64,000 nt of DNA from Patulibacter minatonensis DSM 18081 (GCF_000519325.1 NZ_KI912613.1:2207261-2271260); one strand, 5' to 3'. Counted from the stretch's first letter, positions 36,192 to 43,288 are shown. A program made the numbers and translations. The notes: generated by a model from the sequence alone, not told the origin.

Positions 36192-36611
36192 ATGAGCCGC
36201 GATCAGGACCGCGTCCAGCGCTTTCACTCCGGCGGGCCGTGGGAGACCGAGGTCGGCTACTCACGGGCGATCCGCGTCGGCGACCGCGTGCTGGTGTCCG
36301 GGACGACCGCCGCGCGCGGCGACGAGCCGATCCCCGAGGACGTCGGCGAGCAGGCCCGGCTCGCGCTGGGGACGATCGAGCGCGCGCTGGAGCAGGCCGG
36401 GTCCGAGCTGCGGGACGTCATCCGCTCCCGGGTCTTCGTCGTCGACCTGCCGACGAACGGTCCGGCCGTGCTCGAGGCCTACGGCGCGGCGCTGCGCGGC
36501 GCGCGGCCGACCATCTCGACGCTCGGCATCGTCGCCCTCGTCGACCCGCGGCTGAAGGTCGAGATCGAGGTCGAGGCGATCGTCGGCGCCGGCGCGGTCT
36601 ACGAGGGCTGA
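36192..36611 (+). CDS. ridA: RidA/YjgF family enamine/imine deaminase-like protein
   Basis: The 139-residue cytoplasmic protein belongs to the RidA/YER057c/UK114 superfamily; members hydrolyse reactive enamines and imines formed by PLP enzymes. Typical segments are RVGDRVLVSGTTA, DVGEQARLALGTIERALEQAG, DVIRSRVFVVDL and the end VEIEVEAIVGAG. The usual catalytic Arg region (RPT near residue 104) is retained, but the flanking motif is that of a RidA subfamily rather than archetypal RidA, so deaminase activity is probable, not certain. Its last 13 bases overlap the convergent DUF4178-like gene. Confidence 0.85.
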   Translation: MSRDQDRVQRFHSGGPWETEVGYSRAIRVGDRVLVSGTTAARGDEPIPEDVGEQARLALGTIERALEQAGSELRDVIRSRVFVVDLPTNGPAVLEAYGAALRGARPTISTLGIVALVDPRLKVEIEVEAIVGAGAVYEG

Positions 36612-37255
36612 GGCCCGGCGACCGTCGCGGCCGCGCCGCCCGGGGGCCACACGTCGACCATCCGGCCCGGCACCGCGGTGCCGATCCACGCGTTCCAGGT
36701 CTCGTCGTCCGCGGAGCGCTCGAGCACGAGGCGGCGGGACGGCATCTCCTCGCGGGTGAAGACGACGCGCTCCACGTCGGCGTCCGAGACCGGCTGCAGG
36801 CCGCCCCGCCGGGAGCGCTGGCGCTCGCCCGTCGCGTCGACCGGGCCGGCGTCCGCGGCGAGGCGGACCCACTCGTGGTTGCGCCACGTCAGGCGCTCGG
36901 CGCCCGGGTCCAGGGTGTCCGGCCGCTCGGCGCGCACGGCGAAGACGACCTCGTCGTCGCGCCCGGCGGTCTGCAGCCAGCCGCCCTGGCCGCGGTCGTC
37001 CAGGTGCCACGCCGACCACGCCTCGCCGCCCTCCGGGGTCACGTGCTGGACGCCGCGCACGAACCACCGCTGCCGGTCGAACTGCAGCTCGACGCCGATC
37101 GCCAGGTGGTCGAGCCCGACGAACGCCGTGCCGTCGTGGGCGGGCATCCCACGCTCGCGCACCGCCGCCTCGTTCCGCGTCGCGATGCGCAGCGGCACGA
37201 CGAACGCGACGAGCGACGCGACGGCGAGGAGCCCCATGACGATCGCGAGCAGCAC
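36599..37255 (-). CDS. Membrane-anchored DUF4178-like protein
   Basis: The 218-residue protein has one N-terminal TM helix (VLLAIVMGLLAVASLVAFVV) and a cytoplasmic beta-rich domain. Its segments (AIGVELQFDRQRWFVRGVQH, EAWSAWHLDDRGQGGWLQT and the final MVDVWPPGG) align in order with those of the DUF4178 protein at 42658-43275 (GAVVAHDGHDYVVRG, SEWTEYHLDAGSDVKTWLS and LLEIYPAG). I read it as a diverged relative lying outside that operon. The start is the GTG at 37255, six bases after a TATCCT box (37262-37267 on this strand); a longer frame to 37390 would run through that box. Function unknown. Confidence 0.68.
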   Translation of the reverse strand: MLLAIVMGLLAVASLVAFVVPLRIATRNEAAVRERGMPAHDGTAFVGLDHLAIGVELQFDRQRWFVRGVQHVTPEGGEAWSAWHLDDRGQGGWLQTAGRDDEVVFAVRAERPDTLDPGAERLTWRNHEWVRLAADAGPVDATGERQRSRRGGLQPVSDADVERVVFTREEMPSRRLVLERSADDETWNAWIGTAVPGRMVDVWPPGGAAATVAGPQPS

Positions 37256-37416
37256 CCCGCGAGGATAGGGCGGATCGCGGCGACGGCGGCCCGCGACGAC
37301 CGGCGGCCCGGCGGTGCGGCGTGCCACCGCGCCCACGTCGCTGCGACCATGGGCGACGACCGCCCGGACCGATGCCGTCCGGGGGCGCACCGTCCGCCAC
37401 CGACCTCCGCCCGCCG

Positions 37417-38235
37417 ATGACCGACGTCCCCGACCTCGCCGACCACCCCGCCGACGACGCCGACGCCGTCCTGGTCCGGCTGCGCGCGACCGTCCGCGGC
37501 ACCCCCGAGGAGGTCTGGTGGTCGGTCGCCACCGGCGCGGGGATCGGCACCTGGTACGTCCCGGCGAAGGTCCAGTCCCGCGTCGGGGGCGCGGTCGTCA
37601 CCGACCACGGGCCCTTCGGCCACAGCCACGGGGTCGTCACCGCGTACGACCCGCCGCGCCGGTTCGCCTACGAGGAGCGCGCGTGGGGGCAAGAGGTCCC
37701 GCCGTGGCGGACGGAGGTCCTCGTCGAGCCCGGCCCCGGCGGCGTCTGCGAGGTCCGGCTGACGAGCGGCCTGACGACCGACGGCCCCCGCTACCGCGAC
37801 GCGATCGGGCTGACCGAGGAGGCCTGGGTCGCCGGGCTGCGGAACCTGCGGCTGGCCCGCGAGCACTTCCCGGGACAGGAGGCCGGGGGCGTCTTCGTCG
37901 TCCGCGGCGTACGGGCACCGCAGGGCGAGGCGTGGGCGGCGCTCCTGCGCGCGCTCGGCCTGGCGGACGCGGTCGTCGGGGACGAGGTCGCCGCGACGGA
38001 GGGCGCGCCGGCGCTCGCCGGGGTCGTCGAGGAGGTCCGGCCGACGAGCCTGCTGCTGCGGACGACCGCGCCCGCACCGGGCTTCGTCGAGCTCTCCGCC
38101 CACACCTGGACGACGACGTCGCTGCTCGTCCACGCCCACCTCTTCGGACCGGCGGGCTCGGCGGTCGCGGAGGCCGAGCGTCCCCGCTGGGACGCCTGGC
38201 TGCACGCGCGCTTCCCGGGCGCGAAGCCGACGTAG
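37417..38235 (+). CDS. SRPBCC (START-like, AHSA1 type) domain protein
   Basis: The 272-residue cytoplasmic protein starts with a hydrophobic-ligand-binding SRPBCC domain: LRATVRGTPEEVWWSVATG, YDPPRRFAYEERAW and a helix ending LRLAREHF at about residue 155. The second half (RGVRAPQGEAWAALLRALGL onward) has the spacing of a shorter helix-grip repeat and ends RPRWDAWLHARFPG, so it may be a degenerate second copy. Such proteins are typical activators or small-molecule binders; the ligand is unknown. MPSGGAP (37372) is an alternative start. It converges on the spermidine-synthase-like gene with nine bases between stops. Confidence 0.78.
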   Translation: MTDVPDLADHPADDADAVLVRLRATVRGTPEEVWWSVATGAGIGTWYVPAKVQSRVGGAVVTDHGPFGHSHGVVTAYDPPRRFAYEERAWGQEVPPWRTEVLVEPGPGGVCEVRLTSGLTTDGPRYRDAIGLTEEAWVAGLRNLRLAREHFPGQEAGGVFVVRGVRAPQGEAWAALLRALGLADAVVGDEVAATEGAPALAGVVEEVRPTSLLLRTTAPAPGFVELSAHTWTTTSLLVHAHLFGPAGSAVAEAERPRWDAWLHARFPGAKPT

Positions 38236-38244
38236 GGCCCCCGG

Positions 38245-39957
38245 CTAGTAGTCCGCCCACCCCTTGCGGGTGTAGTCGAGGATCGCCGGGCGGTTCAGCG
38301 TCGTCGGGCGGACGTCCCGGGGGCCGCGGTCGGCGGGGAAGGTCGCGGCGGCCCGCAGGGTCGCCTGGTCGAGGAACCGCAGGCCGGGCGGGGGAGGGGA
38401 GCCGACCGACAGCGGCGGGGCCTGCGGGGCGCTCGCCGGGCCGGCGAGCCAGAAGCCCCAGTCGCCGAACGTCGGGACGTCCACGTGGTACGGCCGGCCG
38501 CGCCAGCCCGCGAGCTGCAGGGTCTTCCCGACCGACCAGAACGCGTCCGCGGCGAAGTACGGCGAGCCCGACTGGACGACCGCGACGCCGCCGGGGGCGA
38601 GCACGCGGCTGCGGACCATGCCGTACATCTCGGCGCTGTAGAGCCGGGCGAGGCCCTGGTCGTCAGGGTCGGGGAAGTCGACGATCACCGCGTCGTAGCG
38701 GTCCCCGGTGCCGCCCTTCGGGTGGTCGCGGACCCAGTTGAAGGCGTCGCCGTTGGTGACCCGGACCCGCGGGTCGTCGAACGATCCGTGGTTCAGCCGC
38801 CGCAGGCGCGGGTCGGTGCGGGCGAGCCGCGTCATCGCCGGGTCGAGGTCGACGAGGTGGGCCGACGCGACCTCGCGGTGGCGCAGGACCTCGCGCAGCG
38901 CCATGCCGTCGCCGCCGCCGAGGACGAGGACCTTCAGGCCCCGCGACCGGGCCTCCGGCGTCGTCGCCGCCAGGGCCGGGTGGACGAGGGCCTCGTGGTA
39001 CCGGTACTCGTCGCGGCTGGAGAGCTGGAGGTCGCCGTTCAGGTACAGCCGCACGTCGGGCGTCCCCTTGAACGTCAGGCTCTCGGTGACGTCGATCTCC
39101 TGGTACGGGGTGCGCTCCGAGACGACGATCGGGTCGTCGTAGAGCTGCTGGCGGGCGGAGACCTCGAACCGGCCCGCGTAGGCGAGACCCAGCACCACGG
39201 CGACCAGGCCCGCCGCGAGCAGGCCCGTGGACGCGATCGCCCCGCGCCGCGTCAGGTCGCCCCGGAAGACGACGAAGATGATGAGTGCGGCGCAGAGGAG
39301 GTTGACGAGGCCGGCCGCCAGGGCCCCGCGCATCTGGCCGAGCAGCGGCAGCAGCACGAACGGGAACGCCAGGCCGCCGACGAGCGCGCCGACGTAGTCC
39401 GCAGCCGTGAGGTCGGCGAGCGCGCGGGCCGCCGCCTGCCGGCGCACCCGCTGGAGGAGCTCCATCAGGAGCGGCAGCTCGGCACCGACGAGCGCGCCGC
39501 AGACCAGCGAGGCGACGATCACGGCCGGCGTGTAGACCCCGGCGTACGCGAAGGCGGCGTAGCAGGCGAGGACGGAGAACCCGCCCGCCACCGCGACGCC
39601 GGTCTCGACCACGACGAACGCCGCGAGCGGCCGCCCGAGCAGCGGCTTGGCGGCCAGCGCGCCGAGCCCGAGCGCGAAGACGAACAGCGAGACGACCAGA
39701 GACGTCTGCGTGACGGTGGCGCCGACGAGGACGCCGCCCAGGGCGATCAGCGCGAGCTCGTAGACGAGGGCGCACGCGGCGCACGCGCCGGCGGCGAGCA
39801 GCAGGAGCGCCCGGACGGAGCGGGGCGAGGCACCGGCGCCGGACGTCGTGCCCTCCGCCGTGGAGGCGCCGGCGGCCGGGCCGCCGGGACCCGCCGCGGC
39901 CGGCGTCGCGTCCCCGGTCGGGCCCGGGACGGCGCCCGCGGCGCCGTCGGCGCTCAC
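38245..39957 (-). CDS. Membrane-bound spermidine-synthase-like protein
   Basis: The 570-residue protein combines about seven N-terminal TM helices (residues about 48-270) with a cytoplasmic SAM-dependent aminopropyltransferase-like domain: FEVSARQQLYDDPIVVSERT, DEYRYHEALVHPAL, the SAM/dcSAM site KVLVLGGGDGMALREVLRH, VDLDPAMTRLART and VIVDFPDPDD. This is the SpeE fold with a membrane module, found in several bacterial lineages. Whether it makes a polyamine or modifies another substrate is unknown. It is the last gene of a seven-gene operon; its GTG start overlaps the DUF350 stop by four bases, so the enzyme is probably made in step with that membrane protein. Confidence 0.88.
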   Translation of the reverse strand: MSADGAAGAVPGPTGDATPAAAGPGGPAAGASTAEGTTSGAGASPRSVRALLLLAAGACAACALVYELALIALGGVLVGATVTQTSLVVSLFVFALGLGALAAKPLLGRPLAAFVVVETGVAVAGGFSVLACYAAFAYAGVYTPAVIVASLVCGALVGAELPLLMELLQRVRRQAAARALADLTAADYVGALVGGLAFPFVLLPLLGQMRGALAAGLVNLLCAALIIFVVFRGDLTRRGAIASTGLLAAGLVAVVLGLAYAGRFEVSARQQLYDDPIVVSERTPYQEIDVTESLTFKGTPDVRLYLNGDLQLSSRDEYRYHEALVHPALAATTPEARSRGLKVLVLGGGDGMALREVLRHREVASAHLVDLDPAMTRLARTDPRLRRLNHGSFDDPRVRVTNGDAFNWVRDHPKGGTGDRYDAVIVDFPDPDDQGLARLYSAEMYGMVRSRVLAPGGVAVVQSGSPYFAADAFWSVGKTLQLAGWRGRPYHVDVPTFGDWGFWLAGPASAPQAPPLSVGSPPPPGLRFLDQATLRAAATFPADRGPRDVRPTTLNRPAILDYTRKGWADY

Positions 39958-40388
39958 GAGATGGAGGCGGCGACCACGGCCCCGACGGCGAGGTGCGTGA
40001 CCACGGTGATCCAGACCGCCGGGTGGTGGTCGTCGTGGGCGACCATCTCGCCGAGGTCGCCCGGCGTCAGGAGGTCGACGACCTTGAAGACGAGCCCGAT
40101 GAGGATCACCCCGAGCAGCCCGTAGCCGAACGCGTCGACGAGCCCCTTGCCGAGGTCGTCGTCGGAGCTCAGGATCGCGACGACGACGGTCATCGTGTTC
40201 GCCGCGAGCCCCGACGCCAGGACGGCGGTCAGGTCGCGGTTGCGGTCGGTCCAGATCTGCTTCTTCAGGTCGCCCGGGGTCGCGAGGTCGACGGCGACGA
40301 AGCCGGCGACGAGCACGAGCAGGCCGACGACGGAGTAGGCGGCGGCGCTGCCGAGGCCGTTCAGGAGGTCGTTCAGGGTGTCGTTCAT
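39954..40388 (-). CDS. DUF350 (YjfL-like) membrane protein
   Basis: The 144-residue protein has four TM helices (AYSVVGLLVLVAGFVAVDLA and two further hydrophobic segments plus a C-terminal one) and the DUF350 repeat LATPGDLKKQIW, echoed in the second half as LLTPGDLGEMVA, with the conserved NRDLTAVLASGLAA between. DUF350 proteins are small inner-membrane proteins of unknown activity, repeatedly found beside spermidine-synthase-like and DUF4178 genes. It overlaps the downstream synthase-like gene and starts four bases after the stop of the preceding gene, within the coupled operon. Confidence 0.88.
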   Translation of the reverse strand: MNDTLNDLLNGLGSAAAYSVVGLLVLVAGFVAVDLATPGDLKKQIWTDRNRDLTAVLASGLAANTMTVVVAILSSDDDLGKGLVDAFGYGLLGVILIGLVFKVVDLLTPGDLGEMVAHDDHHPAVWITVVTHLAVGAVVAASIS

Positions 40389-40392
40389 CGGC

Positions 40393-41304
40393 CTAGGGGG
40401 TGGTGGTCGTGGAGGGCGGGGCCTTCGACGGGCCGGCGTCCTCGCCCTTGCGCGTGCCGAGGAACCCGCGGACGAGCAGGAATAGCGCGACGAGCAGCAG
40501 CCCGACGGCGATCGCGATCCCGACGCCGTGCGCCCGGATCCAGTCGGAGCCCGGTGAGCCCGTCAGGCGGTCGTCGTTCGGAGCGGCCCCGGTGGGGGCG
40601 ACGGCGGTCTCCTCGGCGGGCTCCGCGCCGTCGAGCACGAGGGGGAGCGCGGCGGTCAGGTTGCGCAGCGCGAGGTCGTCGTCGTTCCCGAGCAGGTCGC
40701 CGTCCGAGACCCCGGTGAGGCCCTCGAGCCGCTTCGTGGCCTCGGAGCCGGTGAGTCCGGGCACGTCCGTCACGACGCTCCAGCCGGCGCTGTCCTCGGA
40801 CTCCGACGACGAGCTCGTGTAGTTCAGGCTCACGTTCACCACGACGTAGCCCTTCGCGCAGGACGGCCCGCCGGGGCGCTGGTCGGGCCCGTCGTTCGAC
40901 AGCACCTCGTCGCGGTCGGCGGCGCCGGACCCGGAGAGCGACACCTGGTAGCCGAAGCAGACGTCGGTGTCGTCCGTCGCCTCCGCGAGCGTCTGGGCGA
41001 GCTCGACGCGGTCGGCGGCGTCGAGCAGGATCCCGGGGCCCGCCTGCTCGGCGGTCAGCACGGGCTGCGTGGACGTCGGGGCGGTCGGGTCCACGGGCAG
41101 GGTGGTCGTGCTCGACGGCGATGTCGTGGCCCCGGAGCCGGGGAGCTGCGTCGTCGGTGCCGTGGTCGACTGCGCGGCCGCGGGTCCGGCGGTCGCGGCG
41201 AACAGCGCCGCCGTCAGGACGGTCGCCAGCGCCCGGCGGCGTGGTCCGGCCGGGCGTCCGGTCCGGTCGGGGCCGGTGCCCGTCGTGGAACGCCGGGACG
41301 TCAC
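40393..41304 (-). CDS. Exported protein with C-terminal membrane anchor
   Basis: The 303-residue protein has a signal peptide (RALATVLTAALFAATAGPAAA), a Thr/Pro/Ser-rich segment and an ectodomain of about 150 residues (VLTAEQAGPGILLDAADRVE onward) containing two Cys (DTDVCFGYQ and GPSCAKGY) and acidic helices. A C-terminal TM helix (GIAIAVGLLLVALFLLVRGF) and a short basic tail ending in Thr/Pro follow. I do not recognise the ectodomain. In position it is the extracellular partner of the DUF4247/DUF350/synthase-like operon. The GTG start overlaps the DUF4247 stop by four bases; a longer upstream frame is a shadow of that gene. Confidence 0.75.
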   Translation of the reverse strand: MTSRRSTTGTGPDRTGRPAGPRRRALATVLTAALFAATAGPAAAQSTTAPTTQLPGSGATTSPSSTTTLPVDPTAPTSTQPVLTAEQAGPGILLDAADRVELAQTLAEATDDTDVCFGYQVSLSGSGAADRDEVLSNDGPDQRPGGPSCAKGYVVVNVSLNYTSSSSESEDSAGWSVVTDVPGLTGSEATKRLEGLTGVSDGDLLGNDDDLALRNLTAALPLVLDGAEPAEETAVAPTGAAPNDDRLTGSPGSDWIRAHGVGIAIAVGLLLVALFLLVRGFLGTRKGEDAGPSKAPPSTTTTP

Positions 41305-41738
41305 TTGCCCGTCCCCGGTCCGCCGCCCCGGAAGCCCTCGGCCCGCCCGGAGTACGTGCCGAAGTAGCCGCCGACGAACGGGTACCAGTGCGCGTAGCCG
41401 CGCTCGGCGTCGTCGACGCTGATCTCGCTCCCGCCGCCCGTCCGCGGGCGGATCGCGATCAGGTCGTCGGAGTAGCGGAGGAAGACGCCGCCGGGATCCG
41501 TCAGGCGGTCGGCGGGCTTCCACGCGTCGGTCAGGCGCTTCGTGACGCGCTCCACCCGCTCGGAGGTCCGGTAGACGTCGGAGCCGTTCCGCTTGCCCGC
41601 GGAGGCGTAGTGGTCCTTGACCCAGCTGCGCGGCGACGAGCCGCAGGACGACAGGCCGCCGATCAGCAGGCCGAGCGCGACCAGCAGCAGCACGCCGCCG
41701 GCGACGAGCGCCAGGGGGGACTTGCCGCGGAGGCTCAT
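41301..41738 (-). CDS. DUF4247 domain lipoprotein or membrane protein
   Basis: The 145-residue protein is anchored by one N-terminal hydrophobic helix (LALVAGGVLLLVALGLLIGG) followed by LSSC, which may act as a lipobox. The remainder matches DUF4247: SWVKDHYASAGKRNGSDVYR, FLRYSDDLIAIRPR and a Gly-rich end with HWYPFVGGYFGTYSGR. The role of DUF4247 is unknown. The start overlaps the DUF2617 stop, and the stop overlaps the next start, both in four-base overlaps, so it sits in the middle of the coupled operon. Confidence 0.83.
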   Translation of the reverse strand: MSLRGKSPLALVAGGVLLLVALGLLIGGLSSCGSSPRSWVKDHYASAGKRNGSDVYRTSERVERVTKRLTDAWKPADRLTDPGGVFLRYSDDLIAIRPRTGGGSEISVDDAERGYAHWYPFVGGYFGTYSGRAEGFRGGGPGTGK

Positions 41739-42271
41739 CGGGCGGCCCCGGCGAGGAGCAGGGCGGCCGCCGAGGAGCGGGTCCGGACGACCTCGCCGCG
41801 CTCGGGGTAGAGGTGCCAGGTGTCCCACGACACGCCGTCCTGGCGGACGACGGCGCGCAGCCCGGTGGTGGCGCCGGGGACGCCCGGGAACGCGGCCACG
41901 AGGCCGTGGGGATCGGCGGCCAGGAGGTCGTGGAGCTCGTCCGAGAGCGCCACCACGGCGTCGGTGCCGGGGACGTCGACGTGGGCCGAGAAGCGGTACC
42001 GGACGCCGTGGTCGTCGACGCGGTCGGGTGCCACGGCGAGCGGCCTGCCGGCAGTCAGGCCGCAGGCGACGGTCTCGGTCACGGTGGTCCCGTCGGGGAG
42101 GGCGATCCCGACGGCGTGGGAGGCCCCGAGGACCGCGAGCCGCAGCGCGCACGGTGACGCGGGGACGTCGAGCGTCGCGAGGGCCTCCGGGGCCGGACCG
42201 CCCGGCCGCAGCGACCACCCGAGCTCGGCGGCGGCCGCGTCGCGGAACGGGACGTCGATCAGCGTGCGCAC
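41735..42271 (-). CDS. DUF2617 family protein
   Basis: The 178-residue soluble protein matches DUF2617: LIDVPFRDAAAAELGWSL at the start, YRFSAHVDVPGTDAVVALSD in the middle, and AADPHGLVAAFPGVPGATT then VSWDTWHLYPERGEVV at the end. Its activity is unknown. The GTG at 42271 is separated by one base from the stop of the coiled-coil gene, and its own stop overlaps the DUF4247 start, consistent with translational coupling. The frame is open upstream, but that part is a shadow of the coiled-coil gene. Confidence 0.85.
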   Translation of the reverse strand: MRTLIDVPFRDAAAAELGWSLRPGGPAPEALATLDVPASPCALRLAVLGASHAVGIALPDGTTVTETVACGLTAGRPLAVAPDRVDDHGVRYRFSAHVDVPGTDAVVALSDELHDLLAADPHGLVAAFPGVPGATTGLRAVVRQDGVSWDTWHLYPERGEVVRTRSSAAALLLAGAAR

Positions 42272-42272
42272 G

Positions 42273-42623
42273 TCAGCGCCCGTCCTCTCGTCGGTCGTGG
42301 GCCGGGTCCGGGTCCTCGTCGCGGTGCGACCGCAGCGACTCGAGCGCGAGCTCGGCACGGCGGGCCAGGTCGCGCAGCTGCTCGATCCGGGGCTCCAGCG
42401 CGACGGCGCGGCGCTCCTGCAGCGCGGCGTCCTCGGCGAGTCCGGCGAGGCCCGGGGCCTCCGCGCGGTCGCGCAGCCGGCGGCTCTCCTGCAGGGCCTT
42501 CGCCCGGACCGTCACGACGGCCGCGACGGCCTCGCGCGCGGCGGACAGGGCCTGCTCGGCCGAGCGGATCGCGTCGGACGCCGACGGGTCGCCGGTCGGC
42601 CCGCCGGCGGCGCCGTCGGTCAC
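42273..42623 (-). CDS. Coiled-coil hypothetical protein
   Basis: The 116-residue protein is almost entirely helical and charged, with heptad-like hydrophobics (SAEQALSAAREAVAAVVTVR and LQERRAVALEPRIEQLRDLA) after a Gly/Ala-rich start. No TM segment or signal is present. No family is recognised. It occupies second position in the DUF4178-DUF2617 operon, 34 bases after the DUF4178 stop, where a scaffold or PspA-like helical partner might be expected, but that is inference from position and composition only. The start is GTG. Confidence 0.7.
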   Translation of the reverse strand: MTDGAAGGPTGDPSASDAIRSAEQALSAAREAVAAVVTVRAKALQESRRLRDRAEAPGLAGLAEDAALQERRAVALEPRIEQLRDLARRAELALESLRSHRDEDPDPAHDRREDGR

Positions 42624-42657
42624 GGTCGGTGCTCCGTCGCGACGCCGTCGGCGCCCC

Positions 42658-43275
42658 TCACCGGGCGCCCTCGGCGGCCGACCCGGCGGGGTAGATCTCC
42701 AGCAGGTGCGCGGCGACCTGGGTCCCGGTCGAGACCTCCCAGGAGCCGTCCTTGGACCAGCGCTCGAAGCCGAGCATCCGGCCGCCCTCGGCCGCGTAGT
42801 CGGCGTACCAGGCGGTGCCGACCGCCGGCAGCCCGGTCGTCCCCGCGGTCGTGTACGCCGCCTTGCCCGACTCGACCTTCCTGTAGGTGCGGCCGTCGTG
42901 GGTCACGGAGCCGCGCGTGGGGGCGAGGTCCCCGGGGGCCGCGACGCCCTGCCAGAACGCGACGTCGGTGCCGTCGGAGAGGTCCACCGACAGCCACGTC
43001 TTGACGTCGCTGCCGGCGTCCAGGTGGTACTCGGTCCACTCCGAGCCCTCCTCGTTGAAGCGGATCTCGCCCCGGACGACGTAGTCGTGGCCGTCGTGGG
43101 CGACGACCGCGCCGACGCCGAGGCCGGCCGTCGGGCCGCCCGAGCGGTCCGCGAGGGGGTCCTTCGGCGTGGGGAGGACCAGCTGATCCCCCTTCGCCAC
43201 CGTGGCGCGCGCCCAGAGGAAGAGCAGCGCGGCGACGATGACGATGATCAGGATGATGGTCATCTGGCCTTCCAT
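42658..43275 (-). CDS. DUF4178 domain protein with N-terminal TM anchor
   Basis: The 205-residue protein starts MEGQMTIILIIVIVAALLFL (TM anchor). Its cytoplasmic beta-rich DUF4178 domain includes LGVGAVVAHDGHDYVVRGEI, EGSEWTEYHLDAGSDVKTWL, VTHDGRTYRKVESGKAAYT, MLGFERWSKDGSWEVSTGTQ and LLEIYPAGS. DUF4178 has unknown biochemical function and is found with DUF350 and synthase-like genes in many bacteria. It is the first gene of the seven-gene operon; a TAGGCT box is seven bases before its ATG. A second, divergent DUF4178-like gene is at 36599-37255. Confidence 0.88.
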   Translation of the reverse strand: MEGQMTIILIIVIVAALLFLWARATVAKGDQLVLPTPKDPLADRSGGPTAGLGVGAVVAHDGHDYVVRGEIRFNEEGSEWTEYHLDAGSDVKTWLSVDLSDGTDVAFWQGVAAPGDLAPTRGSVTHDGRTYRKVESGKAAYTTAGTTGLPAVGTAWYADYAAEGGRMLGFERWSKDGSWEVSTGTQVAAHLLEIYPAGSAAEGAR

Positions 43276-43282
43276 GGCGCGG

Positions 43283-43288
43283 AGCCTA
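43283..43288 (-). promoter_or_regulatory. Candidate -10 box TAGGCT of the seven-gene operon
   Basis: On the minus strand TAGGCT is seven bases before the ATG of the DUF4178 gene, fitting the leaderless pattern. No other obvious promoter was seen within the operon. Confidence 0.5.

Follow-up and report, generated by a model that had tools for sequence, protein, structure and literature searches.

A DUF2617 protein encoded beside a membrane SpeE in Patulibacter minatonensis as a candidate divergent S-adenosylmethionine decarboxylase

The window analysed here is a stretch of 64,000 nucleotides from Patulibacter minatonensis DSM 18081 (GCF_000519325.1, NZ_KI912613.1:2207261-2271260), and the system in question is an operon of seven minus-strand open reading frames (ORFs) that spans positions 43275 to 38245, counted, as are all operon coordinates, from the first letter of the window. 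The operon is real, conserved and already described. What seems new relative to the literature, and was absent from the first-pass annotation of this DNA, is that its DUF2617 protein (gene 3) is inseparable from the membrane SpeE (gene 7) and resembles the missing S-adenosylmethionine (AdoMet) decarboxylase. On structural models and genome comparisons, DUF2617 would probably be a divergent AdoMet decarboxylase of the pyruvoyl type, and with it a new class of this enzyme, supplying SpeE. SpeE-like genes without a recognisable AdoMet decarboxylase are a long-standing puzzle, the halophile case having been raised in PMC5178350, and DUF2617 is carried by Mycobacterium tuberculosis (CCP45394.1 according to PMC11237479), Corynebacterium, Streptomyces and Haloferax. 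The two genes are as follows:

41735-42271, minus strand: gene 3, DUF2617, putative divergent pyruvoyl-type AdoMet decarboxylase (PF10936, E 1.9e-39; function suggested by linkage, replacement and models)
38245-39957, minus strand: gene 7, membrane aminopropyltransferase with an N-terminal transmembrane (TM) module and a SpeE domain (NF002956)

Linkage between the two was assessed in a sample of 396 genomes of the phylum. Membrane SpeE is present in 27 of these and DUF2617 in 25, all of them within the same 27 (Fisher p 1.3e-37, from genomes that are not independent of one another), and DUF2617 lies no more than 2 kb from 27 of the 29 membrane SpeE copies. DUF2617 was found in none of 25 control genomes lacking membrane SpeE (0/25). 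Loci were also collected in two ways: regions around DUF4247 matches were taken from the phylum's other families, and 80 named loci were fetched by DUF2617 alignment; SpeE is present in 79 of the latter, and the remaining locus stops at a contig edge. The minimal form of the operon, seen at 23 loci, is a bare DUF2617-SpeE pair. Soluble SpeE is adjoined by SpeD (PF02675) in 15 of 20 cases, and the likeness of the minimal pair to this canonical speD-speE pair supports a decarboxylase role for DUF2617.

Decarboxylated AdoMet is required by any aminopropyltransferase. No PF02675 match was found in the complete genome from which the window derives (5.52 Mb, one contig). Among 32 further genomes carrying the operon, PF02675 is present in three, and two of these (G195 and G363) hold the only two operons without DUF2617; in the 396-genome sample, the two membrane-SpeE genomes without DUF2617 carry SpeD. 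Extension of the sample within one family added 19 membrane-SpeE genomes (in one of which the gene is split): 18 have DUF2617 and no SpeD, and the exception (G580, genus g118) has SpeD and no DUF2617. SpeD is thus found in 3/3 membrane-SpeE genomes without DUF2617 (G195, G363 and G580, all of genus g118) and in 2/43 DUF2617 genomes of both samples (G170 and G325, Streptomyces-type, with both enzymes present). The association of DUF2617 with SpeE is independent of this replacement evidence. Avoidance between SpeD and DUF2617 across the whole phylum was also considered and proved uninformative, the two-genome overlap being close to chance; the informative comparison is that within membrane-SpeE genomes. 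The control genomes of Haloferax volcanii and Corynebacterium glutamicum both give a DUF2617 match and no PF02675 match. The source of decarboxylated AdoMet for the 7-TM SpeE homologues of halophiles has been posed as a question (PMC5178350), and the H. volcanii result corresponds to the AdoMet decarboxylase missing there.

The predicted structure of DUF2617 points partly in the same direction. AlphaFold models were obtained for the window protein (pLDDT 93.4) and, after AdoMet decarboxylase had ranked low among the structural matches of that model, for a second, more compact homologue from locus L037 (pLDDT 95.1). Before the L037 comparison, the expectation was set that AdoMet decarboxylases would match with Ser51 on the pyruvoyl serine. 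The top match of the L037 model (VIA-align, 1000 chains) is the uncleaved human proenzyme 1msv, with Z 7.9 over 129/168 residues at 3.3 Å and the next match at Z 6.1, values below 8 being such as can reflect a common arrangement. Alignments of L037 to the processed human (9pbb) and potato (1mhm) enzymes begin 51-to-69 and 51-to-74, at His51 of the model; as this is one residue past the pyruvoyl position, Ser50 of L037 is placed on human Ser68 and potato Ser73. The window model aligns to the potato enzyme in the same register (52 to 74), with the longest alignment among the matches shown. The N-terminal domain of human spermine synthase, which resembles AdoMet decarboxylase, is also among the L037 matches.

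Seven polar residues are invariant in 55 DUF2617 homologues: D11, S51, H52, E66, C70, T136 and H153. Five of these (D11, S51, C70, T136 and H153) correspond to human E8, S68, C82, S229 and H243, while H52 and E66 resemble, respectively, the His that follows the serine and the Asp four residues before the Cys in class 1b enzymes. The potato catalytic residues, numbered from the PDB sequence, are Ser73, Cys87, Ser236 and His249. Ser and Cys would therefore come from the first half of DUF2617, and Ser/Thr and His from the second, as in class 2 enzymes. The codons concerned are:

42119-42121, minus strand: Ser51, putative pyruvoyl precursor, in an A-S-H motif invariant in the 55 homologues
42062-42064, minus strand: Cys70, predicted counterpart of human Cys82 (invariant; Ser-Cys spacing of 14 in L037, as in human)
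41864-41866, minus strand: Thr136, predicted counterpart of human Ser229 (invariant; paired from the hairpin and hhalign registers)
41813-41815, minus strand: His153 in W-x-T-W-H-x-Y-P, predicted counterpart of human His243 (invariant; the ends of the structural alignments match to within two residues)

With the class 2 enzymes of human and potato and with SpeD of class 1b (PF02675), DUF2617 shares the identity and order of the catalytic residues (Ser, Cys, Ser/Thr, His), the hairpin layout and the pairing with an aminopropyltransferase, and may share the fold. It differs in being approximately half the length of class 2 and in that helices are missing from its N-terminal half.

Besides the caution attached to Z scores below 8, several observations weigh against a decarboxylase assignment. 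In the VIA-align search with the window model, AdoMet decarboxylase is found only at rank 16 (Z 4.2), and Foldseek gave no significant match for either the window or the L037 model. The residue before Ser51 is Ala, where most AdoMet decarboxylases have Glu, and Thr replaces Ser229. None of the 55 DUF2617 proteins matches the Pfam AdoMet decarboxylase models (PF02675, PF01536) at E values up to 10, so DUF2617 is not filed here as a member of either family. Alignment of DUF2617 to SpeD with hhalign is marginal (P 0.009-0.024); it beat 150 column shuffles, but the unrelated decoy pair DUF350-SpeD scored higher, and this result is accordingly not relied on. The replacement by SpeD is confined to one genus and hence represents a single evolutionary event, and another g118 genome (G564) has SpeD without membrane SpeE. 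Finally, polyamines are undetectable in Mycolicibacterium smegmatis (PMC8503589), which means that something other than a polyamine may be produced. Homology at the sequence level, sought by PDB sequence search and Pfam scans, could not be demonstrated. Human and bacterial AdoMet decarboxylases themselves show little or no detectable sequence homology to one another (PMC10407285), and the missing similarity of DUF2617 is for this reason not decisive.

The strict one-to-one linkage with membrane SpeE would be predicted equally if DUF2617 were a dedicated, non-catalytic partner of the aminopropyltransferase, such as an assembly factor, regulator or lid. We consider this unlikely: the invariant polar residues S51, H52, E66, C70, T136 and H153 look catalytic, the absent SpeD is left unexplained, and the presence of SpeD in all three genomes without DUF2617 becomes a coincidence. 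A protein with the AdoMet decarboxylase fold might instead generate the acceptor by decarboxylating an amino acid such as ornithine or arginine; switches of this kind are widespread among SpeD homologues, one of them in Solirubrobacter (PMC10407285). Such an activity would, however, leave nearly all operon genomes without a source of decarboxylated AdoMet, and replacement by PF02675 proteins (whose activity is predicted) points to the AdoMet step, which makes this explanation very unlikely. It is highly improbable that the operon chiefly represents a complex for envelope stress of the phage shock protein (PSP) type, its SpeE-like domain and DUF2617 serving sensing and not synthesis: operon relatives do include PspA and CesT/Tir genes (PMC11237479) and several parts are predicted to face outside, but the operon lacks PspA and the aminopropyltransferase motifs of gene 7 are intact.

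With the computed gene order, linkage, SpeD absence or replacement, and structural and residue matches as a basis, catalysis and self-cleavage by DUF2617 and roles for the other five products can be proposed as follows. The operon would encode a membrane-located module for aminopropyl transfer. DUF2617, as a single chain, would cleave itself at Ala50-Ser51 to yield a pyruvoyl group and would then convert S-adenosylmethionine to decarboxylated AdoMet, which the TM-fused aminopropyltransferase (gene 7) would receive and use on the inner side of the membrane. DUF350 (four TM helices), DUF4178 and the coiled-coil protein may be membrane or cytoplasmic partners, and the DUF4247 lipoprotein and ectodomain protein may be partners at the outer face; candidate aminopropyl acceptors are a free diamine, a lipid or a protein. 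If this is true, the decarboxylated AdoMet gap is filled for mycobacteria, streptomycetes and salt-loving archaea, a further enzyme class, one that arose separately in evolution, joins those known, and a single protein and a single mutant would suffice to test a membrane-bound aminopropyl pathway. A bolder version, which we regard as quite unlikely, would make DUF2617 the founder of a third AdoMet decarboxylase class, built as a compact, fused pseudo-dimer and common to actinobacteria and haloarchaea, which with membrane SpeE makes an aminopropylated membrane component and not a free polyamine, perhaps on the Lys tail of DUF4247 (RGGGPGxGK) before export, or on a lipid.

Comparisons confirm gene 7 as a membrane aminopropyltransferase of the PRK03612 type, with transfer activity predicted. 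It scores 617.7 bits against NF002956 (PRK03612) over residues 43-569, far above the equivalog cut-off of 472, and alignment to the solved aminopropyltransferases 7xif and 1uir shows the SpeE motifs GGGDG, DLD, D-x-x-D-P and DEYxYHE intact. The related 7-TM SpeE homologues of haloarchaea lack the putrescine-binding residues (PMC5178350); together with the lack of detectable polyamines in M. smegmatis, this speaks against spermidine as the product. Membrane SpeE appears to be split into two frames at two sites (L088, 9509-11237, and G565:C24:68898-70440), which may reflect a frameshift or modules that are truly separate.

DUF4247 also has a distinctive feature: all 74 homologues examined (74/74, loci L006-L119) end exactly in Lys after a glycine-rich tail (41301-41312 in the window), which is mostly RGGG[PS]GxGK and is GGPGGTK in mycobacterial-type loci. 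The constancy lies at the C-terminus of an exported protein. The tail may serve as an acceptor or for recognition; it cannot be the sole acceptor, since two-gene loci lack DUF4247. At a Nocardiopsis locus (L108), a short lipoprotein encoded between DUF2617 and DUF350 is not scored as DUF4247 but ends in the same tail (GFRGGGTGFGK). No DUF4247 relative was found on viral contigs.

The operon corresponds to one that Ravi et al. (2024, PMC11237479) include among PSP-associated polyamine operons as a variant lacking PspA, in which DUF4247, DUF2617, DUF350 and SpeE occur together without the CesT/Tir-PspA dyad (M. tuberculosis CCP45394.1, the DUF2617 protein, and CCP45395.1). The window operon has the same core families and lacks the same dyad; it differs in its added coiled-coil and ectodomain genes and in a genome without SpeD. 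Like the E. coli yjf-type and Shewanella-type PspA-CesT/Tir polyamine operons, it links DUF350 and polyamine enzymes to a lipoprotein, but it lacks PspA, CesT/Tir and the ATP-grasp gene. None of the seven genes encodes PspA, and PF04012 is matched just once in the genome, at 5.24 Mb, approximately 3 Mb from the operon at 2.25 Mb. The suggestion in the first-pass annotation that such genes occur in PspA neighbourhoods is therefore borne out for the wider operon family and not for this operon, and membership of the PSP system was rejected as the operon has no PspA. No paper that we found mentioning DUF2617 assigns it the proposed decarboxylase function; subscription papers were mostly not covered by this search, and an earlier proposal is possible.

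The core order DUF4178-DUF2617-DUF4247-DUF350-SpeE is found across Actinomycetota, with losses at some loci. Its recurrence in dozens of genomes, with junctions that are mostly short or overlapping, indicates an arrangement beyond chance and supports a conserved functional unit, as had been suggested; the accompanying description of that unit as undescribed does not hold, given PMC11237479. All seven genes occur in order in G093, a genome of the same genus. In the most frequent arrangement (28 loci, almost all from Micromonosporaceae), DUF350 and SpeE flank the ectodomain gene; at seven loci, the window included, it lies between DUF4247 and DUF350. Streptomyces-type loci without DUF4178 number 19. 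Some genomes (G266 and G452) have two DUF2617-SpeE pairs each, one within a longer operon and the other standing alone as two genes; besides loci L037 and L038, there are second copies at C1:4.56 Mb and C1:2.02 Mb.

Two of the genes had been thought lineage-specific. For the ectodomain gene this is refuted by homologues at 36 of 98 loci (Micromonospora, Salinispora, Actinophytocola and Frankineae); a TPM-like fold, also considered for its product, has no Pfam support. The coiled-coil gene is indeed restricted to the family, but not to one genus: it has counterparts in G093 and in G017, of another genus, where a diverged syntenic coiled coil is flanked on both sides by overlaps (ATGA and GTGA). 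The remaining operon features are:

42658-43275, minus strand: gene 1, DUF4178, one predicted N-terminal TM helix at residues 4-22 (PF13785, E 5.8e-31)
42273-42623, minus strand: gene 2, family-restricted coiled-coil protein (no Pfam match; G093 homologue, E 1e-36)
41301-41738, minus strand: gene 4, DUF4247, predicted lipoprotein with an LSSC lipobox and an RGGGPGTGK C-terminus (PF14042, E 1.2e-20)
40393-41304, minus strand: gene 5, predicted exported protein with a signal peptide, two Cys invariant in the alignment and a C-terminal TM anchor (no Pfam family)
39954-40388, minus strand: gene 6, DUF350, four candidate TM helices (PF03994, E 4.5e-23)
43283-43288, minus strand: TAGGCT, probable -10 element (TANNNT), 7 bases 5' of the first ATG

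ORF calling and the sequence agree exactly with the seven leftward genes and junctions first annotated: the gaps measure 34, 1 and 4 bases, and overlaps of four bases fall at 41735-41738, 41301-41304 and 39954-39957. The family names given then (DUF4178, DUF2617, DUF4247, DUF350 and SpeE-like) also stand, since all four DUFs and the enzyme exceed the Pfam/NCBIfam cut-offs; no family in these collections matched genes 2 and 5. The TAGGCT box is present before gene 1 (43288-43283), and a scan for the sigma-70 consensus gave no match. In G093 the position equally far from the first ATG reads TATCGT, and a putative -10 element of the TANNNT type is thus kept between the two genomes.

Two further genes lie downstream of the operon:

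36599-37255, minus strand: second, divergent DUF4178 gene (PF13785, 21 bits against a cut-off of 25)
37321-38235, plus strand: AHSA1/SRPBCC (AHSA1-like) gene, on the opposite strand to the operon

The second DUF4178 gene was not reported in the first-pass annotation. Its counterpart in G093 is located after the SpeE gene, and with this synteny kept it is a candidate member of the unit only. The AHSA1 gene and the second DUF4178 gene are in the same order downstream in G093, where the AHSA1 protein is 70% identical.

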